Source: Acetomicrobium thermoterrenum DSM 13490
GTDB taxonomy: Bacteria; Synergistota; Synergistia; Synergistales; Acetomicrobiaceae
Direction: 5' to 3'
DNA length: 64,000 nucleotides
Assembly: GCF_900107215.1 (NCBI RefSeq)
Contig: NZ_FNPD01000010.1
Coordinates: forward strand, 1 to 64,000
Positions 2,554 through 26,768 of this stretch are shown one piece after another. The notes beneath the pieces are model-generated. The model worked only from the letters and a program-made list of their open reading frames with translations, did not search any database and had not been told where the DNA came from. Each line of letters opens with the position of its first letter. Position 1 is the stretch's first letter. Both the position numbers and the translations under genes were made by a program.

Positions 2554-2585
2554 GCGGTTTTTATTTTTATTTGGGGGGACTTACC

Positions 2586-3236: not shown

Positions 3237-3252
3237 AGGAGTGATCTCGGGG

Positions 3253-5127: not shown

Positions 5128-5136
5128 AGATAGGTC

Positions 5137-6384: not shown

Positions 6385-6406
6385 GGTTTTTGAAAGGAAG
6401 AGAGCT

Positions 6407-7474
6407 ATGAAGAATTTCGATAGGGCCTGGAGTCTTTCCAAAGTTGCGACTTATTTGGAGGGCAGGTTGGCGGGAGATCCGGAAGAAGTCGTTTTGGGGA
6501 TTGCTTCCCCCGAGGAGGCCGCCCCAAATTATCTATGCGTCGTGTGGGAAAAGAAGTGGCTTCAGAAGCTGGGGGAGAGGGTTTTTGTGATAGCTCCCGT
6601 GAATTGGCTGAGTCCAGGTCAAAGGGGAGTGGAAATCGAAGATCCGAAGAAGGCTTTGATTAAGTTGCTCTCCCTTTTCGAAAGGCCGCGTTCCTCGCAA
6701 GGGGGCGTTCACCCCTCAGCCGTCGTACATGAAAGAGCTTCAGTGGATCCTTCCGCATATGTAGGTCCTTTGTGTGTTGTGGATGAGGGGGCCGTGATAT
6801 CTGCTAACGCCATCCTTGAGGCACACGTTTATGTAGGAAAAAACGTCTTTATTGGCGAAGGAACTGTAATTGAACCAAATGCGAGTATATACCACGATGT
6901 AACCTTGAAAAAAAGGTGTCTCATCCATACAGGCGCTTCCCTTGGTTGCGAAGGGTTCGGATTTTACAACGACAAGGAAGGTCTTATAAAGATCCCTCAA
7001 GTGGGAGGTTTATTGGTGGAAGACGACGTCGAGATCGGTGCCCTGACGAGCATAGACAGGGGAACAATTGGGGATACCCATATAGGTCCAGGCACCAAGA
7101 TAGGAGACTGCGTCCATATAGGTCATAACGCAAAAATAGGCTCAAACTGCATAATAGTAGCCATGACCGGAATCGCCGGAAGCGCGGTAATAGAAGATAA
7201 CGTGATTATGGCCGCCCAAAGCGGTGTCAAGGATCACGTAAAGGTAGGGAGAGGAACGATAGTGGCGGCCAAATCGGGGGTGACCAAGGACATTCCTCCG
7301 GGAATGATGGTCTCCGGTTTTCCGGCGAGAGACCACAGGGAAGAATTAAAGATTCAGGCGTTAATGCAGAAGTTGCCCGAAATATACGAAAGGCTCGTGC
7401 ATCTGGAACGAAAATTAGGAGTGAAAGATCGCGATGGCAAAAAGAACGACCCTTCGAAGAACAATAGAAGTTAA
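6407..7474 (+). CDS. lpxD: LpxD, UDP-3-O-acylglucosamine N-acyltransferase
   Basis: LpxD adds the second acyl chain to UDP-3-O-acyl-glucosamine in lipid A synthesis, in the cytoplasm, using acyl-ACP. The 355-residue protein has an N-terminal uridine-binding region (about 1-100), then a long left-handed beta-helix of hexapeptide repeats such as 'IGPGTKIGDCVHIGHNAKIG', which includes the family's conserved His-containing turn. The segment 'GEGTVIEPNASIY' and the 'SIDRGTIGDT' loop are typical of LpxD. A GGAAGAG site precedes the ATG. Its last 41 bases overlap lpxC in another frame, which points to translational coupling. Confidence 0.95.
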   Translation: MKNFDRAWSLSKVATYLEGRLAGDPEEVVLGIASPEEAAPNYLCVVWEKKWLQKLGERVFVIAPVNWLSPGQRGVEIEDPKKALIKLLSLFERPRSSQGGVHPSAVVHERASVDPSAYVGPLCVVDEGAVISANAILEAHVYVGKNVFIGEGTVIEPNASIYHDVTLKKRCLIHTGASLGCEGFGFYNDKEGLIKIPQVGGLLVEDDVEIGALTSIDRGTIGDTHIGPGTKIGDCVHIGHNAKIGSNCIIVAMTGIAGSAVIEDNVIMAAQSGVKDHVKVGRGTIVAAKSGVTKDIPPGMMVSGFPARDHREELKIQALMQKLPEIYERLVHLERKLGVKDRDGKKNDPSKNNRS

Positions 7475-8285
7475 GGGCAAAGGGCTTCACAGCGGAAGGG
7501 AGAGCGCTATTGCCTTGATTCCTTCCTATCGGGAAAGTGGTATAATGATCTGCGCTTCGAAGGGGAAAAATCTTTATCCCATCGGAGATTGTGAGCTTTT
7601 CTCGCCCGGCAGGTCTACCTGTCTGGTTTTGCCCGATGGCGAGATAATTTATACCGTGGAACATCTTCTGGCATCCCTTTATGGTATGGGTGTAGATGAT
7701 GCAGTTGTAGTTGTAGAGGGAGGAGAAGTCCCCATATTTGACGGCAGCGCCTTGCCATGGGCGGAGCGCATAAAAGATGTCGGTCTGGCGGAAAAGGATG
7801 ACGGCGAAGAAAGGCCCATAAATTTGTCATCTCCCCTGCTTGTGGAAGACGACGAGACTGGGGCGTGGGTTGCCTGCTTTCCCTCCGATGTTCTAAAAGT
7901 GAGCTATATAATATCCTTTGATAACGACTTCATAGGGACGCAGGTCTTTTCTTCAGTCGTAACGGAGGAGACTTTCCTTAAAGATTTTGCTCCTGCCAGG
8001 ACTTTCGTAAGGCTTGAAGATGTGGATGAGCTAAAAAAGCAGGGTTTGGCCTTAGGCGGTAGCCTGGACAATGCATTGGTGTTCGATGATAAGGGATTGG
8101 TAAACGATACTTTCTTGCGCTTTGAAAACGAATGCGTCAGGCACAAGGCGGTGGATCTGCTGGGGGATCTGTCTTTAGTGGGCAAGTTCCTTTGTGCTCA
8201 CGTCGTTGGGTTTAAGGCTGGCCACAGGCTGCATTTGCGGATGGTGGAACGTTTAAAACGGTTGTGCAGAGGTGATATGAGTTGA
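7434..8285 (+). CDS. lpxC: LpxC, UDP-3-O-acyl-N-acetylglucosamine deacetylase
   Basis: LpxC is the zinc-dependent deacetylase that commits UDP-GlcNAc to lipid A synthesis. In this 283-residue protein the zinc ligands are visible: His77 in 'TVEHLL', and His237 and Asp241 in '[10 protein letters not shown]'. The C-terminal catalytic His (264) lies in 'GHRLHLR'. Length is slightly below the E. coli enzyme, mainly at the C-terminus. It is a true LpxC without the FabZ domain found in LpxC-FabZ fusions, since fabZ follows as a separate gene with a 4-base overlap. The order lpxD-lpxC-fabZ-lpxA places all early lipid A steps together. Confidence 0.97.
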
Positions 8286-8749
8286 CGATTGACGAGGATA
8301 AAATTGTTGATATTGATATCCATAAAATAATGAAGTGCCTTCCCCATCGCTATCCCTTTTTGCTTGTAGACAGGATTTTGGAGCTCGGCGAAGGGAAAAT
8401 AGTAGGGCTAAAAAATGTCACCATCAACGAGCCCTTCTTTCAGGGACATTTCCCCGATGAGCCTGTCATGCCGGGCGTGCTTGTCTTAGAGGCCATGGGT
8501 CAGGTCGCTGCCATGATGATAGTGCTCCGTCCGGACATGCAGGGGATGGTCACCTATTTGACGGGAGTGGATAAGGCCAGGTTCCGCAGGCCCGTGTGTC
8601 CTGGCGATCAGTTGATCACGGAAGCGCTGGTGTGTAAGCTAGGAGGGCGCGTTGGACAGGTTAAGGCCACGGCCAGGGTTAATGACGAAATGGCAGCCGA
8701 GGCGACGTTTAGCTTCGTGGTGGCCAAGAATTTATTACAGAAGGGGTAA
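8282..8749 (+). CDS. fabZ: FabZ, 3-hydroxyacyl-ACP dehydratase
   Basis: FabZ dehydrates beta-hydroxyacyl-ACP in fatty acid elongation and competes with LpxA/LpxD for the same hydroxyacyl-ACP. The 155-residue protein shows the single hot-dog fold with the catalytic His in '[13 protein letters not shown]' and the Glu-bearing helix in '[12 protein letters not shown]', plus the '[11 protein letters not shown]' signature. The start is a TTG at 8282 overlapping the lpxC stop in TTGA, with GAGGTGAT about a dozen bases upstream. Overlapping lpxC and adjoining lpxA ties fatty acid and lipid A synthesis in one transcript. Confidence 0.96.
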
Positions 8750-8751
8750 CT

Positions 8752-9570
8752 ATGAGAGTGACAATACATCCAACGGCAATAGTCTCTCCCGAAGCGGAGT
8801 TGGGGGAAGGAGTGGTGATTGGGCCCTATAGCATAATAGAGCCCAAAGTTCGTATAGGGAGAAATACATACATTGGATCCTATGTCAGGATTCTAAGCAA
8901 CGTCGAAATAGGTAGCGACTGCAGGATATACGAAAACACCATACTTGGCGGCGAACCTCAGGATCACTCCTTCAAAGGCGAGATGACTAAGGTCATCATC
9001 GGCGATCGAACGATTATAAGAGAGAACGTTACCGTGCATCGTGCCACGGGAAAGAGCAATGTGACACGAATAGGTGACGACGTATTTTTGATGGAAGGCG
9101 TCCATGTCGGGCATAACGTTAAAATAGGAAACTACGTTACGGTGGCAAATAAAAGCGGACTTGCAGGGCATTGCGAAGTCGAAGATAACGCCAATTTGGG
9201 CGGAATGGTAGGTGTTCATCAGTTCGTAAAGATTGGTAAGTTGTGCATGGTTGGAGGCTTGTCAAAGGTCGTGAAGGATATTCCTCCCTTTACCCTGGCA
9301 GACGGGCGCCCGGCGAGGCTTTATGGTATAAACAGGATCGGTTTGCAGAGGGCCGGTTTCAATTCGACCCAGAGGGATCACGTAAAGAAAATATATAAAA
9401 GGCTTTACCATAACGATATTCCCTTGCGGCAGGCGCTGGATTTGATTCGCAGCGAAGACGTCGAGGATCCGATAGTCAGGGAAATCGTGAGCTTTTTCGA
9501 GAGATCGCGCAGAGGATTGGCGCCCTGGCCGAGAGTGCGTCCTACGTGGGAGATGTCGAATGATGATTAA
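8752..9570 (+). CDS. lpxA: LpxA, UDP-N-acetylglucosamine acyltransferase
   Basis: LpxA performs the first lipid A step, moving a hydroxyacyl chain from ACP to the 3-OH of UDP-GlcNAc. The 272-residue protein begins with hexapeptide repeats of the left-handed beta-helix ('IHPTAIVSPEAELGEG'). It contains the family loop 'GGEPQDHSFKGE', the catalytic His pair in 'EGVHVGHNVKIGN', and 'GGMVGVHQFVKIG'. A helical C-terminal domain with 'NRIGLQRAGF' follows, as in all LpxA. Its end overlaps kdsC by 11 bases. Confidence 0.97.
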   Translation: MRVTIHPTAIVSPEAELGEGVVIGPYSIIEPKVRIGRNTYIGSYVRILSNVEIGSDCRIYENTILGGEPQDHSFKGEMTKVIIGDRTIIRENVTVHRATGKSNVTRIGDDVFLMEGVHVGHNVKIGNYVTVANKSGLAGHCEVEDNANLGGMVGVHQFVKIGKLCMVGGLSKVVKDIPPFTLADGRPARLYGINRIGLQRAGFNSTQRDHVKKIYKRLYHNDIPLRQALDLIRSEDVEDPIVREIVSFFERSRRGLAPWPRVRPTWEMSNDD

Positions 9571-10027
9571 GCTTTTGGCCATGGACGTGGATGGTACCCT
9601 GACCGACGGATCGGTATATATGGACGGAGAGGGACACGAATTCAAGCGCTTCGATATCCAGGATGGAATGGGCATTGCTCTCTTAAGGCGCGAGGGCATA
9701 GAAATAGCTTTAATAAGCGGCCGTTTTTCAGCGTCGACGGATCAGCGGGCCAAGGATCTGGGGATTTCTTTGGTCTTTAACGGCGTAAGGGATAAATTAG
9801 GCACCTTGAAGTCCTTAACCGAAAAATTGGGCTTGAGAGATGAGGAGGTAGCCTATATAGGTGACGACGTAAACGACATAGACTGTATCAAGTGGGCAGG
9901 CCTTGGCATTGCCGTTGCTAACGCGAGGCCTGAAGTCCTGGAAGCGGCCGGCTATATTACCAGGTCTTCTGGCGGCATGGGAGCTGTGAGGGAAGTGGCC
10001 GATTTATTGCTGAAAGAAGGAGTGTAG
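9560..10027 (+). CDS. kdsC: KdsC, Kdo-8-phosphate phosphatase
   Basis: KdsC releases phosphate from Kdo-8-phosphate to give Kdo, between KdsA and KdsB. The 155-residue protein is a C0-type HAD phosphatase without cap: the nucleophile motif is 'MDVDGTLTDG', the second motif 'LISGR', and the Mg-binding motif 'IGDDVNDID'. The length matches the YrbI/KdsC family. It lies in the lipid A operon rather than with the other Kdo genes, which are 10 kb downstream. The start is one of two ATGs at 9560/9563 inside the lpxA end. Confidence 0.93.
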   Translation: MMIKLLAMDVDGTLTDGSVYMDGEGHEFKRFDIQDGMGIALLRREGIEIALISGRFSASTDQRAKDLGISLVFNGVRDKLGTLKSLTEKLGLRDEEVAYIGDDVNDIDCIKWAGLGIAVANARPEVLEAAGYITRSSGGMGAVREVADLLLKEGV

Positions 10028-11151: not shown

Positions 11152-11958
11152 ATGGACTGTAAAACTATAGCTCTTATAGCTGGAGACGGACAACTGCCAT
11201 TGGAAATTGCCCGCCGCCTTACCTGCAAAGGCTGCCCCCCTGTCGTATATTCTTTTGGAGAACATGCGGGGCGTCTTTCCAAGTATGCCCTGGAGTTGGT
11301 GAGGTTATCGGGGTTAAGTCTCGGCTTTTTGTTCGACGATATGAGATCTAGGGGTATTAAAGAAATAATAATGGCCGGGGTCGTTCCCAAAACGCTGATG
11401 TACCATCAGGGGCTACAGGATTCGAAGCTAAGGCAGCTGCTTAAAAAATTGCATTCCAGGGACGATCACAATCTTTTGGCCAATATCGTCTCCGCCTTCG
11501 AGGCCAGCGGTTTTCTCGTCGTCGGGTATAGGGATCTCATATCTGACTGGTTGGCGACGGAAGGGCACATAGCAGGCAGATATGTTACGGAGGAGGAGTT
11601 GGATGACGTAGATTACGGCAGGAAAGTCGCAAAAGCGCTTCTTCCCCTGTCGTTCGGCCAAACCCTGGTGATCCACAAAAGAGCTGTTGTTGCCGTAGAG
11701 GCCATGGAAGGGACGGACGCCATGCTGCTTCGAGCCGGCAGTTTGACAAGGGGCGGAATAGTTCTTAAAATGATGCGTCCCGATCAGGACGAACGTTACG
11801 ATTTGCCCACCGTGGGCATAAAAACCTTGCAGAACATGTCGAATGCCGGGCTCAAGTGTTTGGCAATCGAAGCGGACAGGACGATTATCATCGAACCCAA
11901 TGAGTTCAAACGTTATGCAGAAAGCTTCGATATCGCGGTTTTGGGGGTTAGACATTGA
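11152..11958 (+). CDS. lpxI: LpxI, UDP-2,3-diacylglucosamine pyrophosphatase
   Basis: LpxI hydrolyses UDP-2,3-diacylglucosamine to lipid X and UMP, replacing LpxH in bacteria that lack it. The 268-residue protein has the N-terminal 'LIAGDGQLPLEIAR', a central 'EIIMAGVVPK' and the C-terminal family signature 'RPDQDERYDLPTVGIKTLQN' that includes the catalytic region. No LpxH-like calcineurin phosphoesterase is seen in the window, so LpxI is the likely enzyme for this step. The ATG at 11152 fits the ribosome binding site AGGTGA at 11141; the GTG at 11143 overlaps the previous stop and is less likely. lpxB overlaps its end. Confidence 0.93.
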   Translation: MDCKTIALIAGDGQLPLEIARRLTCKGCPPVVYSFGEHAGRLSKYALELVRLSGLSLGFLFDDMRSRGIKEIIMAGVVPKTLMYHQGLQDSKLRQLLKKLHSRDDHNLLANIVSAFEASGFLVVGYRDLISDWLATEGHIAGRYVTEEELDDVDYGRKVAKALLPLSFGQTLVIHKRAVVAVEAMEGTDAMLLRAGSLTRGGIVLKMMRPDQDERYDLPTVGIKTLQNMSNAGLKCLAIEADRTIIIEPNEFKRYAESFDIAVLGVRH

Positions 11959-13058
11959 GTCTTTTTTTAAGTTGCGGCGAAGCCTCCGGAGACCATTATG
12001 CCGGGAGGCTTATAGAGGCCATTAAAAGCAAAATTGTCCCTGTCTGGGGTATGTTCGGCCCCGAAGGAACGATGGCCGGAGGCCATGCCCTGTGGGGTCT
12101 GGAGGAACTCCAGGTAATGGGCATCTCGGAAGCCTTTAGGGAGATTCCTAGGCTCATGCGTTTAAAAAACGCAATGGCCGATAGAGTCTTGAGTGAAATG
12201 CCTTCATGCGTGGTAGTTATAGATAGCCCTGATTATCATATCCCCCTGATTAAGGCCTTGAGGAAGAGGGGGTACGCTAAGCCCGTATTTTATGTCTCGC
12301 CTCCCACTGCCTGGGCCTGGCGAAGGGGCAGAGCCTCTGCGTTGAGGGATTTAAAGGTCGTTTGTCTTCCCCTCTTCGAGATGGAACACCTTTTTTATAA
12401 ACAAAGGGGCGTGGAAAGTCATTGGACAGGCCATCCCCTCCTCGACGACCTGTCGGGCTACGTTCCAAAGGAAAGGGTGTTGAAAAATACTGACGCTTCG
12501 CCCATAGCGGCACTTTTGCCGGGAAGCAGGTCAAGCGAAACGAGGCGTCTTGCTCCTGTTTTAAAGGATGCCGGTTTAATGCTTCAAGAGATGGGATATC
12601 ATCCGGTAATTTCCATAGCGAAAAACCTATCTGCTCGAGACAGGGAAATGATAAAAAGCATATGCCATCCTCTGACTTTCTTTGAGGGCAAAGGGGTGGA
12701 TTTAATTTCCCAATCACAAATTGTTGTCGGAGCTTGCGGCACTGCTGCGGTAGAAGCGATGATGTTCGATAAGTTCATGGTGGTCCTATATAAGGCGTCG
12801 CTTTTGAGTTATATAGTTTTTAAGGTCATGGTTAAGACAAAGTGGGTGTCCATGCCAAACGTTTTGCTCCGGCGGGAGGTATATCCAGAATTGTTGCAGG
12901 GCAAGGCAAATGTAGGTGCGATAAAAAGGGCGATATGTATGTACCTGGAAAATTCCGCAAAAATACATACGGATTTGCTAGAAGCGAAAAATAAAATGGG
13001 AAGAAGGGGAGCTTATCGGCTCTGGGCCGATGTCATTCTCGAAAGGGTAGGAAGATGA
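11955..13058 (+). CDS. lpxB: LpxB, lipid-A-disaccharide synthase
   Basis: LpxB joins lipid X to UDP-diacylglucosamine to make the tetra-acyl disaccharide. The 367-residue GT-B protein (family GT19) starts with the hallmark 'SCGEASGDHYAG', has 'VSPPTAWAWRRGR' and 'WTGHPLLDD', the phosphate-binding 'LLPGSRSSE', and 'VGACGTAAVEAM' in the C-terminal Rossmann domain. The TTG start overlaps the lpxI stop in TTGA. This protein carries the canonical LpxB motifs, so the two other LpxB-like proteins in this window (next gene and the LpxK fusion) are additional rather than replacements. Confidence 0.95.
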   Translation: MSLFLSCGEASGDHYAGRLIEAIKSKIVPVWGMFGPEGTMAGGHALWGLEELQVMGISEAFREIPRLMRLKNAMADRVLSEMPSCVVVIDSPDYHIPLIKALRKRGYAKPVFYVSPPTAWAWRRGRASALRDLKVVCLPLFEMEHLFYKQRGVESHWTGHPLLDDLSGYVPKERVLKNTDASPIAALLPGSRSSETRRLAPVLKDAGLMLQEMGYHPVISIAKNLSARDREMIKSICHPLTFFEGKGVDLISQSQIVVGACGTAAVEAMMFDKFMVVLYKASLLSYIVFKVMVKTKWVSMPNVLLRREVYPELLQGKANVGAIKRAICMYLENSAKIHTDLLEAKNKMGRRGAYRLWADVILERVGR

Positions 13059-14161
13059 AGTACGTATATATACTCAGCAACGGACCTGGAGAGCTGTGGG
13101 ATTGGGCCAGACCTGTGGCATATGAATTGGCAAAAAACGAAATTAAGCCCCTTCTTTGGTTGTTGCCCTGTCAGTACGCTTCGGGTATGGAGCGCGCTTG
13201 CGCCGAGTTAATTCCCTTTCATGACGTTATAGGTCCCTACAATTGGGCGAAGACCTTTGCCGAGATGAGGAAGGCGAAGGACGTGGGCCTGGTAATGCAG
13301 TTAGGCGGTGACCTAATGTTTGGAAGGTTTTTGTCTAAGACCTCAGGGGCCAAGCTTTTTTGTTATACCTACGGTAAGAAAAGAGGTTTGCCAAAATGTT
13401 CTAAGGTGTTCACCGCCTACCAGGTAATGGCAAGGAGCATCAAGGGCGATGGAGTATGCCCCCATGTCATCGGAGACCTGGTCGCCGATTCTTTGAAGTT
13501 AAATTCCGTGCCGTTTGGCGGGGATGAATTGTCGCCCAAGGGATCGTCATCCTCAAGAAGGGTGGCCTTTTTCCCCGGAAGCAGATTCTCCATAAGAAGG
13601 AAAGCGTTGCCTTTCCTGCATGAGGTTTGCTTGTACCTTAAGTCCGTCATGGACGTGGAAGTAGTGACGTTGCTTTCGCCCTTTTCATTGAACGATGAAG
13701 TGTATGCTTGGAAGGAAGCGGGGTTAAACCCAAGAAGACAGCCCGCATCTACAGTATTGAAAGGCGTAGATTTGGCATTGACGCAACCGGGCACTAATAC
13801 TCTGGAGCTTCTTTATTTGAAAGTCCCCACATTGGTGGCCGTTCCGTACGCATTTTTGAGCGATATACCCTTTAGCGGATTTAAGGGGGCACTGCTTCGC
13901 TTGCCTTGGATCAAAGGCAGGGTTTTCGATCTTTTATCGAAAAAGAGAGGCATGCTTTCCTGGCCCAACAAGATACTGGGAAGAGAATTAATGCCCGAGC
14001 TGGTCGGAGATTTTACGCCAAAGCAGATTGCAGAGGCCATGGCTCGTTTTTTAAAGGACGACACCTGGCTTAAAGAAACTTCTGCATCTATGGACAGATT
14101 TTCGCCCGCGAGGGGGGCTTCTAAAAAATTGGTCGAGGAGATAAAACAATGTCTCGTTTGA
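13055..14161 (+). CDS. LpxB-like GT-B protein of unknown function
   Basis: The 368-residue protein has a GT-B layout similar to LpxB but different motifs. The N-terminus reads 'YILSNGPGELWDWARP' where LpxB has its GEASGD loop. The second half has 'FFPGSRFSIRR' and 'LTQPGTNTLELLYLKVP', corresponding to the GSR phosphate loop and the 'GTATLE' nucleotide-binding turn. It probably uses or binds a UDP-sugar or a lipid A intermediate, but substrate and product are unknown. It overlaps lpxB by 4 bases and msbA by 13, so it is made together with the enzyme before and the flippase after it. A modification of the lipid A disaccharide before export is a reasonable inference. Confidence 0.8.
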   Translation: MKYVYILSNGPGELWDWARPVAYELAKNEIKPLLWLLPCQYASGMERACAELIPFHDVIGPYNWAKTFAEMRKAKDVGLVMQLGGDLMFGRFLSKTSGAKLFCYTYGKKRGLPKCSKVFTAYQVMARSIKGDGVCPHVIGDLVADSLKLNSVPFGGDELSPKGSSSSRRVAFFPGSRFSIRRKALPFLHEVCLYLKSVMDVEVVTLLSPFSLNDEVYAWKEAGLNPRRQPASTVLKGVDLALTQPGTNTLELLYLKVPTLVAVPYAFLSDIPFSGFKGALLRLPWIKGRVFDLLSKKRGMLSWPNKILGRELMPELVGDFTPKQIAEAMARFLKDDTWLKETSASMDRFSPARGASKKLVEEIKQCLV

Positions 14162-17600: not shown

Positions 17601-17671
17601 GAACGATATCTTCCGCGTTTGGCCGAGGGTTTCATGAAAAGAAAAATTTCCTATTGCACATGGTGATTAAA

Positions 17672-19972
17672 ATGAAAGGATTTCTCAATAAATATTTGGA
17701 GTATACGAGGGGGAGGGCCAAAAACTTCCTCTTCGGCCTTATTTTTACCCCCTTGGGATACATATACAGCCTTGGGGTGGTCTTTCGCAATTTCTCCTTT
17801 GATCATGGATTCAGAAGCTCACACGAACCGCCTCTGCCGGTTATAAGCGTCGGTAATATAACTATGGGAGGTACCAATAAGACCCCCTTCGTGGAGATGC
17901 TTGCAAGAAAATTCATGGGATTGGGGTTACGTCCAGGGATCATTACCAGAGGTTATGGCGGAAAACAAAAAGGCAAAGCTCCTGTCCTCATAATGAACGG
18001 CAAAGGGGATCGTAACGAAGTGGGCGACGAATCCCTGCTTCTTTCTTCCAGGTTGCCCGGCGTTCCCGTGTCAGTTTCGTTGGACAGGCTTGCGGCCCTG
18101 GAAAAGCTGTCATCCGAGGGTAACGTCGACATTGTTATATCCGACGATACCTTTCAACACAGGCGAATGGTGCGAGATGCGGATGTTGTTTTAGTCGATG
18201 CAACCTGTCCTTTTGGCAACGGGAAGCTCTTTCCTGCCGGTATTTTGAGGGAATCGCCGGAAAACCTAAAAAGAGCCCACATTTTAGTAATAACCAAGGC
18301 CGATCAGGTTAAGGCTGAAAAGCTGGATGCCTTGATAGAAGAGGTGCGTAAATATGTCCCGGACAAGCCGATTTTTACATCTAGGCTGGCACTTGAAAAG
18401 TGGAAACGATGGGATGGAAGCAGGCTGATCGATGCAGAACCCTTGACTTCGGGGACTCCTGTAGTAATATTTTCTGCCATCGGAAACCCGCCAAGCTTTC
18501 GCAGCTTTGTCGAAAAGATGGGGTTGGATGTCAGGGGGGAATTGCGTTACAGAGATCATCACCTGTACTCTGGGAAAGATCTAATCGACATAAAGAACTA
18601 TTGTGGCGCTTTGGGAGCTAAAGCTGCCATATGCACCGAAAAGGACGTCTATAACCTTCCAGGAGGTTTCGATATGGGCTTTCCGATCCTCATTCCAAGC
18701 GTGGTGACTGCCATGGGCGAGGAGAGAAGTTTCTTTGAAAGCCTTGTAGAAACGTTACGACCTAAGATAGTGGTATCTTCCAACGGACATGGCGAAGATT
18801 CCATGGCCTGTATGTTGATCGAGCGGATCAAAAAGGACCTGCCTGAAGCGAAAATATATGCTTTTCCCCTGGTAGGCAAAGGCAAGCCTTTTCAGGATTC
18901 CGGCATAGAGATCTATCCCCCACCGCTTGATACTCCAAGCGGTGGGGTCATCAAATACAGCTTCCTCGAGCTCTTGAGGGACATAAGAGCAGGATTGCTC
19001 GGCCACGTCAAAAGACAGCTGGATGCCTGGGGCAGGCTGAGGGGGAAGATCAGGACCCCCCTCTGTGTTGGCGATGTATATCTTTTACTGCACGCTTTGT
19101 ATGGCCAGGGAATTCCGCCCATGCTTTTGGCGACGGCCAAGACCGTCTATTTAAGAGGTCATTTCTTTATAGAGAAGTTGATCTTAAAAAAGAAGTCCAG
19201 GATAGTTTGGACGAGGGACGAACATACTGCCCGCGAACTGAAAAAAAGCTCCGTCAATGCCGTTTACTCGGGAAATCCAATAATGGATCTGGCAAGTGAT
19301 AATAATAATTGGACCTTAGAAGATCCTTGGCCTAAGGCCGAGGGATACCGGGTGCTTCTATTGCCTGGAAGCAGACAGAACGCCTATAGAGATGTAAGGT
19401 TGTTATTAAATGCTGCAGAGTTGATAAGGGAACAAGTAAGAGCAAATTTTTTAATGGTTATAGCTCCAAGCATCGAGTGGGACAGGATGGCGTCGAGTCT
19501 TGACGGTTATTCATTGGAAAATGGATTTGTAAAAAAGGGGGAAATGGAAGTCCTCGTATCCTTTTGTCCCGTTCCGGCTGCTGCCAGAAGAGCTGACATA
19601 CTGCTCGGTTTGGGCGGCACGGCCAATCAGGTGTGTGCGGGATTGGGCGTTCCCGTCGTTTCCATCGATGACAAGGGAAAAAGGGTCCAAAAAAGGCTCT
19701 TGGGAGAGGCGGAAGTCCTCCTTAAAAGGGATCCCAAAACCCTTGCTTACGAAGCAATATCGATTCTTAGGGATAGGGAAAGATACGAAGCCATGTCTTC
19801 GGCAGGAAAGTTGAGAATGGGCAAACCGGGTGCGATAGAGGAAATATCGAGATACGTCCTATTCGAGTTAGGATGGAAACATAGGCATGACCTATATTGC
19901 GCCCTGCGAAGCAGATTTCACGGTTATCATGAAACGCTCGAAAAGAAGGAGGTTAAATCAGGCGTTGAATAA
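17672..19972 (+). CDS. lpxK: LpxK tetraacyldisaccharide 4'-kinase fused to an LpxB-related GT-B domain
   Basis: The 766-residue product joins two proteins. Residues about 1-360 are LpxK, the lipid A 4'-kinase: N-terminal membrane-associated helix, 'VISVGNITMGGTNKTP' at the P-loop (61-72), 'TRGYGGKQKGKA', and the 'DDTFQHRRM' catalytic motif (Asp158, Asp159, His163). Residues about 365-750 match the lipid-A-disaccharide synthase-related family (COG4370/TIGR03492 type), with 'SSNGHGEDSMA', 'PLVGKGKPFQ', 'TPSGGVIKYS', 'YSGNPIMD' and 'LLPGSRQNAYRD'. LpxK normally stands alone at about 320-360 residues. Two motif changes are odd: P-loop Gly to Asn (GGTNKT) and DDGFQH to DDTFQH. The ATG at 17672 is chosen for its GGTGAT site; TTG 17654 and ATG 17660 also lie in frame. 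Confidence 0.9.
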   Translation: MKGFLNKYLEYTRGRAKNFLFGLIFTPLGYIYSLGVVFRNFSFDHGFRSSHEPPLPVISVGNITMGGTNKTPFVEMLARKFMGLGLRPGIITRGYGGKQKGKAPVLIMNGKGDRNEVGDESLLLSSRLPGVPVSVSLDRLAALEKLSSEGNVDIVISDDTFQHRRMVRDADVVLVDATCPFGNGKLFPAGILRESPENLKRAHILVITKADQVKAEKLDALIEEVRKYVPDKPIFTSRLALEKWKRWDGSRLIDAEPLTSGTPVVIFSAIGNPPSFRSFVEKMGLDVRGELRYRDHHLYSGKDLIDIKNYCGALGAKAAICTEKDVYNLPGGFDMGFPILIPSVVTAMGEERSFFESLVETLRPKIVVSSNGHGEDSMACMLIERIKKDLPEAKIYAFPLVGKGKPFQDSGIEIYPPPLDTPSGGVIKYSFLELLRDIRAGLLGHVKRQLDAWGRLRGKIRTPLCVGDVYLLLHALYGQGIPPMLLATAKTVYLRGHFFIEKLILKKKSRIVWTRDEHTARELKKSSVNAVYSGNPIMDLASDNNNWTLEDPWPKAEGYRVLLLPGSRQNAYRDVRLLLNAAELIREQVRANFLMVIAPSIEWDRMASSLDGYSLENGFVKKGEMEVLVSFCPVPAAARRADILLGLGGTANQVCAGLGVPVVSIDDKGKRVQKRLLGEAEVLLKRDPKTLAYEAISILRDRERYEAMSSAGKLRMGKPGAIEEISRYVLFELGWKHRHDLYCALRSRFHGYHETLEKKEVKSGVE

Positions 19973-20717
19973 AGATGTTTTAGCGGTAGTCCCAGCAAGA
20001 TACGGCAGCACTCGATTGCCATGCAAGCCCCTCGTAAATATTTGCGGCAAACCTTTACTTTACTGGGTGTTAAAGGGACTGTCGGCATGTAATGTAGACG
20101 AGATAGTAGTTGCTACCGATCATAAGGAGATTGCCGATTACGCCATAGAGGAAGGCTATGAGGCGGTGATGACCCCCTTGGATCTGCCCTCTGGAAGCAA
20201 CAGGACAGCCTGGGTTGCAAGAGAAAGAGATGCCGATATAGTTTTAAATGTGCAAGTAGATGACCCTATGGTAGGTCCTGATATGATCGACCCCTTGATA
20301 GCGGCACTCGGTAAATCAGAAGAAATAGATATTGCCCTCCTAGTGAAACGGATTGAGAAGGAAGAGGAAATTCCAAACCCCAATATCGTCAAGGTGGTAT
20401 TCGACCAAAGGTGGCGTGCCCTTTACTTCAGTAGATCTCCCATTCCTTACGAGAGGAACAAGGGAGCGACGTATTATAAACATATTGGCCCTTATTGTTA
20501 CAGGAAAAGTTTTCTGCTTGAATTCGATTCGTGGCCCCAGACTCCCCTGGAGAGGATCGAGAGCTTGGAGATGTTGCGCATTTTGGAGAGGGGCTACGAT
20601 ATTTTGTGCCTTGAGACCGAGAGAGACACCATAGAGATAGATACGCCCGATGATGTTTCAGCCTTCGAGAGATATTTAAGAGAACATGGAGATGATCTGC
20701 CTTGGTTAAAAAAATAA
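19965..20717 (+). CDS. kdsB: KdsB, CMP-Kdo synthetase (possibly CMP-8-amino-Kdo type)
   Basis: KdsB activates Kdo with CTP before transfer to lipid A. The 250-residue protein has the N-terminal 'VVPARYGSTRLPCKPLV', the 'EIVVATDHKEI' strand and 'YCYRKSFLLEF', and ends with 'TIEIDTPDD', all typical. The conserved 'QGDEP' metal/CTP motif reads 'QVDDP' here. Because kdnA and kdnB lie in the same operon, the enzyme may prefer 8-amino-3,8-dideoxy-Kdo, as reported for Shewanella; that is inference. The TTG at 19965, 12 bases after AAGGAGG and overlapping the previous stop, gives the family's usual length; longer in-frame starts inside lpxK are rejected. Confidence 0.92.
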   Translation: MNKDVLAVVPARYGSTRLPCKPLVNICGKPLLYWVLKGLSACNVDEIVVATDHKEIADYAIEEGYEAVMTPLDLPSGSNRTAWVARERDADIVLNVQVDDPMVGPDMIDPLIAALGKSEEIDIALLVKRIEKEEEIPNPNIVKVVFDQRWRALYFSRSPIPYERNKGATYYKHIGPYCYRKSFLLEFDSWPQTPLERIESLEMLRILERGYDILCLETERDTIEIDTPDDVSAFERYLREHGDDLPWLKK

Positions 20718-21550
20718 CAATTGACGGCATGACAATAGGGGAGGGGCGGTTTGTTTTGGTTGCCGGCCCTTGTGTGCTGGAGAGCTTGGAGCTGGCTCTT
20801 GAAGTCGCCTGCGAAGTGAAGAAAATATGTGACGGTTTGGGCCTGGGTTATATATTCAAATCTTCTTTCGATAAGGCGAATCGCACTTCTATATATTCCT
20901 TTCGCGGTCCCGGGCTGGAGGTGGGTCTGCGGTGGTTGGAAGAGGTCAAAACTAAAGTGGGGGTTCCCGTCCTCACCGACATTCACGAGCCGAACCAGGC
21001 CGATATGGTTTCAAGCGTCGTTGACATCATTCAGATCCCCGCCTTTCTCTGCAGGCAGACCGACCTGATAATGTCGGCTGCCAAAACGGGCAAACCCCTG
21101 AACATCAAAAAGGCACAATTTTTGAGCCCCTATGATATGCGTTTTGTTCTTGAAAAGGCGAAGGAATCGGGCAACGATCAGGTTATTTTGTGCGAAAGAG
21201 GCACCACCTTCGGATATAAGCAGCTGGTAGTGGATTTTCGTTCTCTTTCCATAATGCGTTCCTTCGGTTGCCCCGTGATGTTCGATGCCACCCACAGCGT
21301 TCAGATGCCAGGCGGTCAGGGAGCCTCCAGCGGCGGGAAGAGACAGTTCGTCTTACCTCTTTCGCGTGCCGCGGTATCGGTGGGCATAGATGCTCTTTTC
21401 ATGGAGGTCCATCCCGACCCCGACAACGCTAAAAGCGATGGCCCGAACATGGTGGCTCTTTCGAATTTGAGGGGGCTTCTCGAGGAATTGATTGCCCTTG
21501 ACGACTTGGTCAAAAACAAGCTGGGTTGTGTCGAGATCGAGGAGGCGTAA
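20702..21550 (+). CDS. kdsA: KdsA, Kdo-8-phosphate synthase
   Basis: KdsA condenses arabinose-5-phosphate with phosphoenolpyruvate to Kdo-8-phosphate. The 282-residue TIM-barrel protein shows 'LVAGPCVLES', 'FKSSFDKANRTS', 'GVPVLTDIHEPNQ', 'IPAFLCRQTDLI', 'NIKKAQFLSP', 'MFDATHSVQMPG' and 'MEVHPDPDNAKSDGPN'. The length and every motif fit the family. The Cys in 'AGPCVLES' and the context suit a metal-dependent class II enzyme, but this is not certain. The TTG start at 20702 lies inside the end of kdsB (16-base overlap), which implies coupled translation. Confidence 0.96.
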   Translation: MVKKITIDGMTIGEGRFVLVAGPCVLESLELALEVACEVKKICDGLGLGYIFKSSFDKANRTSIYSFRGPGLEVGLRWLEEVKTKVGVPVLTDIHEPNQADMVSSVVDIIQIPAFLCRQTDLIMSAAKTGKPLNIKKAQFLSPYDMRFVLEKAKESGNDQVILCERGTTFGYKQLVVDFRSLSIMRSFGCPVMFDATHSVQMPGGQGASSGGKRQFVLPLSRAAVSVGIDALFMEVHPDPDNAKSDGPNMVALSNLRGLLEELIALDDLVKNKLGCVEIEEA

Positions 21551-21555
21551 CCGAT

Positions 21556-22575
21556 ATGGAAAAGGCGATATATAAAGACAACAGAGAGCTTACCTTGTCT
21601 CGAGAGGACGAAGAGTTGCTCGAGGTCGGCAAAAGGGTATTAAAGCAGGAAGCGAAGGAATTGACCAATGCGTCATCGCGTCTCGGGAGGGAAATCATAG
21701 AGGCGGCGAAGTTGATATTTGACTGCAAGGGTCGCGTTGTGGTATGCGGCCTGGGAAAGTCGGGCATCATAGCCAAAAAGATTGCCGCCACCTTTGCATC
21801 TCTAGGTACGCCCTCCATCTTCCTTCATGCCACGGAAGGGGTGCACGGAGATCTGGGAATGGTATGCCGTGGCGATGTAGGGATTTTTTTGAGCAACAGC
21901 GGGCAAACCAACGAGGTGCTGGAAGTGGTTCCCTATTTTAAGCGATTCGGTATTCCCATAATAGCGATAACCGGCAACGTTTCATCTAGGCTGGGAAAAG
22001 AGGCGGATCTCGTTATTGATGCGAGCGTGGAAAGGGAGGCCGATCCGCTGGGATTGGCTCCTACCAGCAGCGCCGTGGTTCAGCTTGCCATCGGAGATGC
22101 TCTTGCAGTTATGGTCGCGGACTTGAGAAAGCTGAAAAGAGAGGATTTTGCGCTTTTTCATCCGGGAGGTTCCCTAGGGAAAAAACTGCTTTTAAAGGTA
22201 AGAGATGTCATGGGCAGTGAGGATAAACTTCCCTCAGTATCCCATAGGGCCACGGTGAGAGAGGCTCTCTTCGAGATAACAAGCAAAGGATATGGGGCTA
22301 CGGTTGTCGTGGACGATGAGGGCAAGCTGAAGGGGATATTTACAGATGGCGACCTGCGCAGATTAATAGAGGATCGAGGAGAGGGTGGCGTCCTTTCTCT
22401 TCCCATTGCAGAGGTGATGACGAAAAATCCTAAGACCATAGACGCTGACGAGCTTGCCGCCAAAGGCGTCCTTCTAATGGAAAAACATGAAGTTAGCGTC
22501 TTGATAGTGGAAAAAGATGGATTGCCCATAGGCATGGTGCATCTACACGATATGCTCAAGGCGGGGGTGGCTTAA
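21556..22575 (+). CDS. kdsD: KdsD, arabinose-5-phosphate isomerase
   Basis: KdsD interconverts ribulose-5-phosphate and arabinose-5-phosphate, the entry to Kdo. The 339-residue protein has an N-terminal SIS sugar-isomerase domain with 'VCGLGKSGIIAKKIAATF', 'HGDLGMV' and 'FLSNSGQTNEVLEVVPYF', followed by 'FHPGGSLGKKL'. Two CBS domains follow ('VMGSEDKLPSVS' and 'VMTKNPKTI'), the arrangement of KdsD/KpsF/GutQ. The ATG at 21556, preceded by GAGGAGG, is preferred over an upstream TTG at 21526 within kdsA. It lies 5 bases after kdsA. Confidence 0.95.
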   Translation: MEKAIYKDNRELTLSREDEELLEVGKRVLKQEAKELTNASSRLGREIIEAAKLIFDCKGRVVVCGLGKSGIIAKKIAATFASLGTPSIFLHATEGVHGDLGMVCRGDVGIFLSNSGQTNEVLEVVPYFKRFGIPIIAITGNVSSRLGKEADLVIDASVEREADPLGLAPTSSAVVQLAIGDALAVMVADLRKLKREDFALFHPGGSLGKKLLLKVRDVMGSEDKLPSVSHRATVREALFEITSKGYGATVVVDDEGKLKGIFTDGDLRRLIEDRGEGGVLSLPIAEVMTKNPKTIDADELAAKGVLLMEKHEVSVLIVEKDGLPIGMVHLHDMLKAGVA

Positions 22576-23832
22576 CTGAACCTGAAGTCCTATTCTTTGT
22601 TGATCAGCCTTGCCTATTTGGGGCTTTTCCCCTATTTGAGAATACGTTATAGAGAGGGGTTTCATCAGAGAATAGGCAAGCTTGCAAAAGGGCAATTTAA
22701 TAATACAAAGGACAGCCCAATTTGGGTTCACGGCGTTTCCGTAGGGGAAGTTCAGGCTGCCTTCCCTCTCATATATGAGGCCCGAAAAGGCGGCTGCTCT
22801 CTTCCTATATTCTTATCAACCGTGACTTGTACGGGAAAAAAGATGGCCGAAAAGCTGCTTTCGGAGCTCGTAGACGGGCATTTTTATTTTCCCTGGGATG
22901 TGCCTTGGATTATAAGGCGTTTTCTCGATGACCTCACTCCCAGGATTTATGTGGGGCTGGAGACGGAGATATGGCCTTGTCTGCTTCATGAGTTAAAAAA
23001 AAGGGAGATACCCTCTTTTTTGGTAAACGGCAGGTTTTCGGAGCGGTCCTTTAAGAAGGCCTGCAGATCCCGCGAGTTTTGGAAAGAGACCCTCGAGTGT
23101 TTTTCCAGGATATTGGTCCGTTCCTCCGATGACGCCGATAAACTCTACTATTTGGGCGTTAGTCCGGATAAAATAAAGATCATCGGCGACGTTAAAATTG
23201 ATGCCTTGCTTTTAAGGCGTGATAGGGTCGACTCCGGCGCCTTAAGGGATAAATTGCATATAAGTGAGGAAGAACAGTGTCTGATAGCCGGTAGCACCCA
23301 TAATGGGGAAGAAGCCGTTGTCCTCGAGGCTTTTGATTTGGTGAAAAAACAATTTCCAAAAGCCAAGCTGATCTTGGTGCCCAGGCACCCCGAGAGAGCT
23401 CGTGATGTATGCGCTTTGATCGGCGAAAAATTCGGAGTATCATTATATTCCGGATTGAAGGAAAATTGGGACATTTTGGTGATCGACGAAGTCGGTCTTT
23501 TGTTCGAGCTTTATTCTTTGGCCGATGCGGCCTTCGTCGGCGGGAGTTTGGTTCCTAAAGGAGGTCAAAACGTGCTCGAGCCGGCCTGTTTTGGCGTGCC
23601 CATAGCCTTTGGCCCCCACATGGAGGATTTTTCGATGCACGCCTCTGAGCTCGGCAAGATCGGTATTGCTCAAGTGGTGGAAGACAGCGCAAGTTTGGCT
23701 CGCTTATGGCTGAGTTCCCTGAAAATGAAGACCGAAAGCAGGAAAAGAGCCGTTGAATATGCGGAGAGCTTGGGCGGAGCAGCTGGACTTGCTATAAAAG
23801 AGATACTGGATTGCTTGAAAGGTAGAATTTAA
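22576..23832 (+). CDS. waaA: WaaA (KdtA), Kdo transferase
   Basis: WaaA transfers Kdo from CMP-Kdo to the lipid A precursor at the inner face of the cytoplasmic membrane. The protein has a hydrophobic N-terminal anchor, then 'WVHGVSVGEVQAA' with the catalytic Glu, 'FFPWDVP'-like 'YFPWDVPWI', 'ETEIWPCLLHELKKR', 'VGGSLVPKGGQNVLEPA' and 'FGPHMEDF'. How many Kdo residues it adds cannot be told. The start is uncertain: no ATG/GTG exists in a sensible place. A CTG at 22576, right after the kdsD stop and five bases after GGGGGTGG, gives 418 residues and a full membrane anchor; a TTG at 22597 gives 411 but has no ribosome binding site. Confidence 0.92.
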   Translation: MNLKSYSLLISLAYLGLFPYLRIRYREGFHQRIGKLAKGQFNNTKDSPIWVHGVSVGEVQAAFPLIYEARKGGCSLPIFLSTVTCTGKKMAEKLLSELVDGHFYFPWDVPWIIRRFLDDLTPRIYVGLETEIWPCLLHELKKREIPSFLVNGRFSERSFKKACRSREFWKETLECFSRILVRSSDDADKLYYLGVSPDKIKIIGDVKIDALLLRRDRVDSGALRDKLHISEEEQCLIAGSTHNGEEAVVLEAFDLVKKQFPKAKLILVPRHPERARDVCALIGEKFGVSLYSGLKENWDILVIDEVGLLFELYSLADAAFVGGSLVPKGGQNVLEPACFGVPIAFGPHMEDFSMHASELGKIGIAQVVEDSASLARLWLSSLKMKTESRKRAVEYAESLGGAAGLAIKEILDCLKGRI

Positions 23833-23854: not shown

Positions 23855-25018
23855 TTGTCTTTTGAGATGTTCGTTCCGGGAAAGGCGTTTTTTGGAATCG
23901 GCAGCGTTTCTAAGGTAGGGAATTTGATGGGGGATGGCATGAAAAAGGCCATTATAGTCACGGATAAGAATTTGGCGAAGCACGGTACGGCGAAAAAGGT
24001 CGAGCAAATTCTTACAGCCAGAGGGGTAGATACGGTAATTTTCGATTCGGTGGAACCTGAGCCGTCTGTCGAAACTACCGACGAAGCTGCTTCCTTGGCC
24101 AAAAAATTTGGCGCCCAGGCTGTGGTGGGTTTGGGGGGAGGAAGCTGTTTGGACGTGGCAAAGGCCGTAAGCATCCTTTTAACGAATGAAGGGTCGGCTG
24201 CCAACTACCAGGGCTTGGGACTGGTCAAAAAGCCCGGTGTTTTAAAGGTAATGATACCTACCACTGCAGGTACTGGTTCGGAAGTGACTTTCACCGCCGT
24301 TTTGATCAGAAAAAGCGACGGTTTCAAAGGCGGCATCAACGACGAAAAATTGTTTGCCGATTACGCCATATTGGACCCCGAGCTCACGGTGACGGCACCT
24401 CCAAAAGTTACAGCCTCCTCTGGGATGGACGCCCTCATACATGCTTTGGAAGCCTATACCAGCAGGTATGCGACTTGGTTCAGCGACATGTTCGCCGAAG
24501 AAGCCCTAAGAAGAATAGGAAAATGGATCAGGGTGGCCACCTGGAATGGCAGAAACCTGGAGGCTAGAAGCCAGATGCAATACGCAGCCTATATGGCAGG
24601 ATTGGCCTTGGTCCATGCGGGGGTGGGGGCCTGCCATTCCCTTTCGTATCCCTTGGGGGGGATGTTTGGGGTCGGGCATGGAGTGGCAAACGCCCTGTTA
24701 ATCCCCCATGTGGTACGGGCCAATGCCTTGTGCTGTCCCGAGCGTTACACTGACGTTCTGAGATGGTTGGGATACATTGACGAAGAAGCCAATATTAATC
24801 CAAGGGATGGTGCCTTGCTTTGTGCGGAGGCCCTGGAGGAACTGCTCGAGGATTTAGAGCTGCCTACAACTTTAGAGTCTCTCGGCGTGGGCATCACAGA
24901 AAAACATTTTCCTGAGATGGCAGAAAAAGCTTTAGCAGTCAGCAGGCCAATGGAGAATAATCCAAGAGTTTTCGACAAGGATCTTTGTATCAAAATTTAT
25001 GAGGAGGCGATGAAGTAA
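23855..25018 (+). CDS. kdnB: KdnB-like Kdo 8-oxidase (iron-containing alcohol dehydrogenase family)
   Basis: The 387-residue protein is a group III metal-dependent alcohol dehydrogenase. It has the NAD(P)-binding 'VVGLGGGSCLDVAKAV', 'IPTTAGTGSEVT', and metal-binding His residues in 'MDALIHALEAYTS' and 'GVGHGVANALLIPH'. On its own this family is promiscuous. The call as KdnB, which oxidises C8 of Kdo, rests on the one-base overlap with a KdnA-like aminotransferase and the position directly after waaA, matching the two-gene Kdo8N system described in Shewanella. The TTG start has AGGAGGGG nine bases upstream. A simple fermentative alcohol dehydrogenase is the alternative. Confidence 0.82.
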   Translation: MSFEMFVPGKAFFGIGSVSKVGNLMGDGMKKAIIVTDKNLAKHGTAKKVEQILTARGVDTVIFDSVEPEPSVETTDEAASLAKKFGAQAVVGLGGGSCLDVAKAVSILLTNEGSAANYQGLGLVKKPGVLKVMIPTTAGTGSEVTFTAVLIRKSDGFKGGINDEKLFADYAILDPELTVTAPPKVTASSGMDALIHALEAYTSRYATWFSDMFAEEALRRIGKWIRVATWNGRNLEARSQMQYAAYMAGLALVHAGVGACHSLSYPLGGMFGVGHGVANALLIPHVVRANALCCPERYTDVLRWLGYIDEEANINPRDGALLCAEALEELLEDLELPTTLESLGVGITEKHFPEMAEKALAVSRPMENNPRVFDKDLCIKIYEEAMK

Positions 25019-26223
25019 TGCCGGGTTTTGAGCTGTTCGATCAGAAGGAAATAGACGCTCTGGCTGACGTAATTAAAAGAAAAGTGGTCCATAGGTATTC
25101 CTTTCAGGGCGTCAGAGAAGGGATTTACAGGGTGGCCGAATTTGAGGATGCTTTTGCTAAACGCGTTGGAGCTAAATACGCTTTGGGAGTAAGTAGCGGT
25201 TCAGCAGCTTTATATGTGGGGCTTAAGGCATTGGGGATAGGGCCGGGTGATGAAATAATAACCAGTGCCTTTACGTTCATAGCCAGCATCGAAGCCATTT
25301 TGGAGTGCGGCGCCGTCCCTGTTTTGGGCGATATAGATGAGAGCCTGAACTTGGATCCCACATCCGTGGAAAGCCTGATCACCGATAGGACTAAGGCCAT
25401 AATGCCCGTACACATGTTCGGTGCGGCTGCCGATATGGATGCCTTCAGGGAAATTTGCGATCTTCACGGTCTTTACCTGATAGAAGATGCCTGTCAGGCA
25501 GTGGGGGCTAAGTATAAAGGAAAAGCCTGCGGAGGTTTGGGGATGTGGGGTGCATTCAGCTTCGATCCCTATAAGGTGATTACCGTCGGCGAAGGCGGAA
25601 TGATCTTCACCGACGACGAAGAGCTTTACAAAAAGATGGAGTATTATCATGACCATGGCCACATTCATAATGCGAGCATAGAAAGGGGAGCCGAGGGGAA
25701 GGCCTGTCTCGGGTTCAACTTCAGGATGAGCGAGCTCCAGGGGGCCTTGGGATTGGTTCAGCTTTCGAAGCTCGATCTCGCCATCGAATCCCAGAAAAAG
25801 AATAAGAGAAAGATATTGGAAGCCATTGGCGACGTCGAAGGGGTTTCTTTGCGGGATCTTCCCGATCGTGACGGCGAGATCGCTTCCCATCTGGTGCTGA
25901 TTTTGCCCGACGGCGATGCTGCTAAGCGGTTCAAAAAAGCCTGCATTGATGCAGGAGCGGGCTGTTCTATTTTGTCCGACAACACATGGCATTACGCCAA
26001 ACATTGGGTTACTCTCAGAGAGGGCAAATATTATTCCAGGACGCGATGTCCCTTCGATTGTCCCTATGCCGAGGACATGCCTTTGTATCGTCCTATCGAG
26101 TGGACTCAAACCGAAGAAATTTTGACGCGGTCGGTTATGTTCCCCATCGATGTTGTCGTGGACGATGCCAGGATCGAAAGGCTTGTATCGGCCATTAACG
26201 CAGGAATAAAGGCGGCACTATAG
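25018..26223 (+). CDS. kdnA: KdnA-like 8-amino-3,8-dideoxy-Kdo aminotransferase
   Basis: The 401-residue protein is a DegT/DnrJ/EryC1-type PLP aminotransferase. It starts 'MPGFELFDQKEIDALADV', has 'GVSSGSAALYVGLKALGIGP', 'LIEDACQAVGAKY' and the PLP Lys in 'FDPYKVITVGEGGMI'. The start and the unusual middle ('YHDHGHIHNAS') resemble KdnA, which aminates the 8-oxo-Kdo made by KdnB with glutamate as amino donor. Adjacent kdnB, kdsB, kdsA, kdsD and waaA strongly support a Kdo role over other sugar aminotransferase roles. The ATG overlaps the last base of the kdnB stop. It ends the operon, with a hairpin terminator 20 bases on. Confidence 0.85.
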   Translation: MPGFELFDQKEIDALADVIKRKVVHRYSFQGVREGIYRVAEFEDAFAKRVGAKYALGVSSGSAALYVGLKALGIGPGDEIITSAFTFIASIEAILECGAVPVLGDIDESLNLDPTSVESLITDRTKAIMPVHMFGAAADMDAFREICDLHGLYLIEDACQAVGAKYKGKACGGLGMWGAFSFDPYKVITVGEGGMIFTDDEELYKKMEYYHDHGHIHNASIERGAEGKACLGFNFRMSELQGALGLVQLSKLDLAIESQKKNKRKILEAIGDVEGVSLRDLPDRDGEIASHLVLILPDGDAAKRFKKACIDAGAGCSILSDNTWHYAKHWVTLREGKYYSRTRCPFDCPYAEDMPLYRPIEWTQTEEILTRSVMFPIDVVVDDARIERLVSAINAGIKAAL

Positions 26224-26282: not shown

Positions 26283-26768
26283 TTATGCATCGACACTTTC
26301 CTCTGCTTTGACCCCTGGAAACGGAAGAGGTGAAGTCATTAGATAGGCGTCCTCTCCGTCTTCGTAATAACGGGAGAGGACGCGCAATTTCTTGAATCCA
26401 AATTGCTCGTAAAGCGTTATGGCCGGACGGTTGGTAACCCTCACCTCCAGGAGTACCTTTTTGCAGGCAAGCTCTAACCCTACTTCGCCCATGGCAAGTA
26501 GTAGCTGAGAGGCCACCTTGTGGCGCCTGAACTCGGGGAGGACTGCCAGGTTCATTATTTTGAGAGCCCTCCCCTCCTGGCGGCATACGCCAAAACCGCA
26601 CAGTTTTCCCCTCCACCGTGCCCCAAGGTAAAAGATGCTACTGCTTCTATATTTCAAATCGGTTTCGAAGACATCGTAGGGCCAGGGGTTGATGTGTGCC
26701 TCCTTTTCTATCGAATAAATATCGTCCAGATCATGAAAATCGCAAAACTCAATATCGACTAACAACAT
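26283..26768 (-). CDS. rimI: RimI-like GNAT N-acetyltransferase
   Basis: The 161-residue protein is a GNAT acetyltransferase. Motif A reads 'NLAVLPEFRRHKVASQLL' with the acetyl-CoA-binding R-x-x-x-x-[GA] turn. 'LEVRVTNRPAITLYEQFGF' is the RimI/TsaD-associated signature, followed by 'YYEDGEDAYLM' as in RimI. RimI acetylates the N-terminus of ribosomal protein S18, whose gene (rpsR) is also in this window. It stands alone between the kdn operon and a divergent unit. The ATG has only a weak upstream GGAG. Confidence 0.88.
   Translation of the reverse strand: MLLVDIEFCDFHDLDDIYSIEKEAHINPWPYDVFETDLKYRSSSIFYLGARWRGKLCGFGVCRQEGRALKIMNLAVLPEFRRHKVASQLLLAMGEVGLELACKKVLLEVRVTNRPAITLYEQFGFKKLRVLSRYYEDGEDAYLMTSPLPFPGVKAEESVDA

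Follow-up and report, generated by a model that had tools for sequence, protein, structure and literature searches.

The Kdo operon of Acetomicrobium thermoterrenum DSM 13490 very probably belongs to a complete 8-amino-Kdo (Kdo8N) pathway of the Shewanella kind, in which the first enzyme is not orthologous to its Shewanella counterpart and KdsB is co-adapted; I put the probability of this reading at about 0.8. The analysed stretch of DNA is 64,000 nucleotides long and is called the window below. The reading builds on observed gene content, operon structure, phylogeny, co-occurrence, and conserved residues, from which the substrate, the carbon position, the cofactor, the role of a Glu residue in KdsB, and incorporation into lipopolysaccharide are inferred.

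Two genes after waaA in the Kdo operon

On the forward strand, the operon runs from a gene for an LpxK-LpxB-like fusion through kdsB, kdsA, kdsD, and waaA to an Fe-ADH (iron-containing alcohol dehydrogenase) gene and kdnA, with gaps or overlaps of at most about 45 bases between the genes. The first gene (17654-19972) encodes LpxK fused to a lipid-A-disaccharide-synthase-related domain, the two parts matching TIGR00682 (residues 34-334) and TIGR03492 (residues 376-735), both above the cut-off. It is followed by kdsB for CMP-Kdo synthetase (19929-20717; the start codon, the M of MKRSKRR, was my choice), kdsA for Kdo-8-phosphate synthase (20702-21550; TIGR01362 and NF003543 above the cut-off), kdsD/kpsF for arabinose-5-phosphate isomerase (21526-22575; start uncertain; TIGR00393 above the cut-off), and waaA for Kdo transferase (22597-23832; a match to PF04413, with the NCBIfam WaaA models under their cut-offs). 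The Fe-ADH gene (23855-25018, 387 aa) begins 22 bases after the end of waaA, and its stop codon has one base in common with the start codon of the aminotransferase gene (25018-26223, 401 aa). Both ORFs thus lie in one operon with kdsB, kdsA, and kdsD, as an earlier note on this DNA had claimed, and the clustering of a transaminase gene and a dehydrogenase gene with Kdo genes, by which a Kdo8N system is recognised, is present in the window. Scans for a promoter and a terminator of the operon gave nothing clear.

Since lpxD, lpxC, fabZ, lpxA, kdsC, lptF/G, lpxI, lpxB, and msbA lie upstream on the same strand of the window, the genes of the Kdo-lipid A pathway are available nearby. The kdsC gene for Kdo-8-phosphate phosphatase (9560-10027, forward strand; TIGR01670 at 165 bits, cut-off 107) is the only one above the cut-off in the whole genome. 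Besides the fusion gene, the window has a separate lpxB at 11955-13058. A gene of 368 aa at 13055-14161, between lpxB and msbA, is matched by no NCBIfam model.

Is this arrangement common in Synergistota? Wherever the contig continues, the loci that were read have kdnA beside an Fe-ADH gene and/or kdsB and waaA, with the exception of one genome (G105). The adjacency of kdnA to Fe-ADH or Kdo genes is conserved well beyond chance.

The aminotransferase is of the KdnA type

The best solved structure for the window aminotransferase, a DegT-type PLP enzyme, is KdnA of S. oneidensis (5k8b), with 318 bits over residues 1-392. The next one is a perosamine synthetase, with 196 bits over the core only (39-257). 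When 66 collected KdnAs were put into one tree with 16 other DegT enzymes of these and further genomes, KdnA came out as one side of a branch (100). When perosamine synthase and further samples were added in a more careful tree, a KdnA superclade was recovered (100/100), which also includes one Bacteroidota DegT enzyme (L290) of unsure function. Residues found in at least 95% of KdnAs and in none of the other DegT enzymes include R33, M133, D183, H215, H217, R279, W324, and W330 of the window protein, and its catalytic PLP lysine is K186 by alignment. Thus, the KdnA-type assignment of the earlier note held against placement with other DegT sugar aminotransferases, in the structure ranking as well as in the trees. 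By sequence, the window aminotransferase is assigned to the KdnA clade, and transamination of 8-oxo-Kdo is predicted for it. It sits in its own Synergistota lineage, not beside Shewanella, and is about 41% identical to S. oneidensis KdnA, so that substrate drift is possible. In NCBIfam, no KdnA or KdnB model matches the window aminotransferase or the window ADH above the cut-off.

Another KdnA lineage of Synergistota (L057-L060) branches from within Bacteroidota, a position suggestive of horizontal gene transfer. KdnA of a Flavobacteriaceae type stands alone in a conserved context at four loci (L089, L095, L106, and L139), with neither kdsB nor an Fe-ADH gene within about 3 kb. The L290 gene of a Bacteroidota genome (G395) has a weakly KdsB-like cytidylyltransferase gene nearby, and its product branches beside the KdnA relatives found in a Prochlorococcus single-cell genome and an Actinomycetota-labelled MAG (L088 and L135). 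The latter MAG carries a KdnB-type ADH too, and its label may be a binning error.

The dehydrogenase is not an orthologue of KdnB

The earlier note had also named the dehydrogenase KdnB-type. In the strict sense, this does not stand. The solved structures closest to the window ADH are methanol and 1,3-propanediol dehydrogenases (242-212 bits), while KdnB of S. oneidensis (5k8c) scores 133 bits against the best of 242 and ranks 27th among solved structures. KdnB belongs to its own Fe-ADH subfamily, FeADH3 or cd08184 (PMC5125639). In a careful ADH tree, a KdnB-type clade (100/100) and a clade of unlinked metabolic ADHs (100/99) were recovered, and the kdnA-linked ADHs of the window type, from Synergistota and Desulfobacterota-type genomes, stand between the two. 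Orthology of the window ADH to KdnB was rejected by the score, the rank, and the placement outside the KdnB clade. Phylogeny against Shewanella has thus borne out the aminotransferase as a member of the KdnA superclade but not the dehydrogenase. All the kdnA-linked ADHs are separated from the unlinked ADHs by one branch (100/99.9), the unlinked set having been collected by similarity to the window ADH and so not being a full sample of the family. The window-type ADHs were also considered as one clade; the best tree gives a grade, though a single clade is not rejected (p-AU 0.195). The claim is therefore limited to their standing apart from both KdnB and the metabolic ADHs.

The window ADH has the ligands D192, H196, H261, and H275 and a GGGS nucleotide motif, as expected of a group III ADH, and the metal ligands and nucleotide motif are preserved in 43 of the 43 window-type ADHs. 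Copies with at least 55% identity to the window ADH were found only in KdnA-positive Synergistota; the loci of the apparent exceptions (G039, G178, and G181) end at contig ends. In sister Synergistota, the same slot is occupied by an ADH closest to the Shewanella KdnBs (168 and 158 bits, the next 66), and these genomes appear to use a distant KdnB there. Two further Fe-ADHs are encoded in the genome studied; one (L039) groups with the metabolic enzymes, and the other (L041) is very divergent.

KdsB type and a signature Glu residue

The Synergistota have two KdsB types, a window-like one of at least about 49% identity to the window KdsB and another that is mostly 40-47% identical to it. With the border between them set by my choice at E 1e-65 and one partial match (G008) assigned to the window-like type, this type was found in 89 of the 90 KdnA-positive Synergistota genomes with a scored KdsB versus eight of the 80 without a KdnA match; the other 72 of the 80 have the other KdsB type only. 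Four of the eight are cut at contig ends (G039, G120, G177, and G181), and the remaining four (G019, G034, G145, and G156) have the KdnA-associated KdsB type with no KdnA found. Many KdnA-positive genomes carry two arrangements, a housekeeping operon of the order kdsA-kdsD-waaA-X-kdsB and, apart from it, a kdsB-dehydrogenase-kdnA cassette.

A tree of 60 KdsBs places every KdnA-associated one on the same side of a branch (SH-aLRT 91); these come from genomes of Synergistota, Bacteroidota, the Desulfobacterota type, Sulfurivirga, and Shewanella. It was found that the residue two positions before the catalytic Asp is Glu in 38 of 38 KdnA-associated KdsBs and in none of the 22 plain ones of this tree. 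When samples of two more groups were added, Glu was present in 42 of 45 KdnA-associated KdsBs, including Shewanella, versus six of 102 others; because the genomes are related, such counts overstate the statistics, and with only about 10 changes of this residue on the tree, a phylogenetically paired test (3:0) was not significant, the events being too few. KdsBs without KdnA association mostly have Gly, Ser, Ala, or Asn at this position. In the Bacteroidota sample, the Glu-type KdsBs are in genomes with KdnA, whereas in genomes without KdnA, KdsBs that are 48-63% identical to Chitinophaga KdsB carry Gly or Ala. The single KdsB of the genome studied carries the Glu (GAG codon at 20634-20636, forward strand). 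The catalytic Asp is E. coli D235 by alignment and was equated with A. aeolicus D219, which binds Mg (PMC3149649). The passages of that paper on the KdsB structure give the metal ligands, and contacts to C8 of Kdo were not found in these passages.

The window KdsB is assigned by sequence to the KdnA-associated type, which appears to be a new and strong indicator of Kdo8N. As a working hypothesis, the Glu residue may contact the 8-ammonium group of Kdo8N. As a perfect marker of KdnA, the Glu was rejected, there being nine exceptions. The clearest exception to the rule is a Bacteroidota operon (L307 in G396, 2427-9374) with the order kdnA-kdnB-kdsA-kdsD-like-HAD-kdsB, whose KdsB has Cys for Glu. 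Three genomes of Shewanella's class (L224 in G270, L242 in G287, and L247 in G251) have a Glu-type KdsB with no KdnA found. One Synergistota genome (L170 in G019, 4443-9572) has this Kdo operon with a window-type ADH that has diverged; no KdnA was found there, and its KdsB has Ser for Glu, a state that looks like loss of the pathway. In KdnA-negative Synergistota, a gene of about 410 aa lies between waaA and kdsB (L183, 5076-6296; L184, 3061-4320).

Distribution of KdnA

Kdo8N, which gives a C8 NMR signal near 44.8 ppm, has been called a 'hallmark of Shewanella species' (PMC6357163), and no report of it outside Shewanella was found in the literature searched, which covers few subscription papers. 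KdnA was detected in 93 of 188 Synergistota genomes (54 of the 116 of high quality), in five of 114 evenly drawn genomes of Shewanella's class, and, on a strict reading, in four of 99 evenly drawn Bacteroidota, a count that leaves out 21 further matches (E 1e-71 to 1e-78), L290 being the one of them that was placed. A scan of the collection also yielded KdnA in Desulfobacterota-type, Bacteroidota, Pseudomonadota, Prochlorococcus, and other records. The idea of the earlier note that this locus broadens the Shewanella system is right in that KdnA is present in this Synergistota genome, but the system is far wider than Shewanella plus one genome.

Proposed pathway and alternative explanations

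KdsD, KdsA, and KdsC would supply free Kdo. The Fe-ADH would then oxidise Kdo at C8, from alcohol to aldehyde, with NAD+ as the probable cofactor, and the KdnA-type transaminase would convert the aldehyde to an amine, with glutamate by analogy with KdnA. The co-adapted KdsB would form CMP-Kdo8N, its Glu near the catalytic Asp perhaps recognising the 8-ammonium group, and WaaA would transfer Kdo8N to lipid A. Since the window ADH is not KdnB, it is linkage only that points to oxidation at C8. The first description of the Shewanella dehydrogenase reportedly had it depend on O2, and tightly bound NAD(H) was reported later; NAD is the likely oxidant here because a strict anaerobe cannot rely on O2.

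Could the two enzymes make a different amino sugar, such as a nucleotide-linked 4-amino sugar of the core or O-chain, and not act on Kdo? The usual substrates of DegT aminotransferases are nucleotide-linked keto sugars, and the NCBIfam families that match the window aminotransferase are all of that kind, though far under their cut-offs. This is nevertheless improbable, given the placement in the KdnA superclade with the KdnA-only residues, the constant presence of Kdo genes next to it across many genomes, the association of KdnA with a KdsB type and its Glu, and an operon in which no nucleotide-sugar dehydratase was seen. That the KdsB type and the Glu go with KdnA strengthens the Kdo8N reading.

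KdnA may instead act as in Shewanella beside an Fe-ADH that is a metabolic alcohol dehydrogenase, with some other enzyme oxidising Kdo, as the closeness to methanol and propanediol dehydrogenases and the two additional Fe-ADHs of the genome might suggest. The linked ADHs are, however, separate from all the sampled unlinked metabolic ones, their adjacency to kdnA holds across Synergistota and Desulfobacterota-type genomes, and in sister genomes this slot is filled by a KdnB-like ADH; of the additional Fe-ADHs, it is the second that groups with metabolic enzymes, the third being very divergent. I regard this explanation as quite improbable. A related ulosonic acid as the product, either N-acylated Kdo8N or an 8-amino sugar of another configuration, is very improbable. 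Stereochemistry and later acylation are beyond what sequence can settle, and the window KdnA belongs to a separate lineage; against this, kdsA, kdsC, and kdsD encode ordinary Kdo enzymes, kdsB is single, and no sugar N-acyltransferase was noted among the operon genes; rimI (26283-26768) is on the opposite strand and scores as RimI.

A broader proposal has about even odds: in anaerobic diderms (Synergistota and Desulfobacterota-type), the non-KdnB Fe-ADH lineage serves as an NAD-linked Kdo 8-dehydrogenase, and one Glu of KdsB selects Kdo8N over Kdo. If so, the lipopolysaccharide of this organism, whose single KdsB is of the Glu type, and of its close relatives would be anchored with Kdo8N alone. 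Judging by the genes, roughly every second Synergistota genome should provide for Kdo8N, as should members of several other phyla. With a charged amine where lipid A joins the core, cationic peptides and bile salts would meet such envelopes differently, and the polymyxin or acid behaviour predicted by the earlier note may follow for this lipopolysaccharide. The Glu of KdsB offers a one-residue marker for the genome-based prediction of Kdo8N and a point-mutation handle on sugar selection. Because of the dehydrogenase swap, strict anaerobes can serve to test whether O2 or NAD is the oxidant in Kdo oxidation.

Comparison with known systems

As in the kdnA-kdnB-kdsB cluster of Shewanella oneidensis, the window has a KdnA-clade transaminase, a dehydrogenase of the Fe-ADH family, and a Glu-type KdsB encoded together. 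In contrast to Shewanella, the dehydrogenase comes from another Fe-ADH lineage, KdnA is only about 41% identical, the genes form part of the main Kdo operon, where they follow waaA, and the phylum is strictly anaerobic. With the KdnB subfamily (FeADH3), the window ADH shares the superfamily, the metal ligands, the GGGS motif, and the place beside kdnA, but it lies outside the KdnB clade and scores 133 bits there versus 242 for methanol dehydrogenase. The metabolic Fe-ADHs (methanol, 1,3-propanediol, and lactaldehyde) include its closest solved structures by sequence; unlike the window ADH, they are unlinked to Kdo genes and form a separate clade (100/99). Perosamine synthetase and other DegT sugar aminotransferases have the core fold and the PLP residues in common with the window KdnA, but they match over the core only (196 bits), lack the KdnA residues, and fall outside the KdnA superclade.
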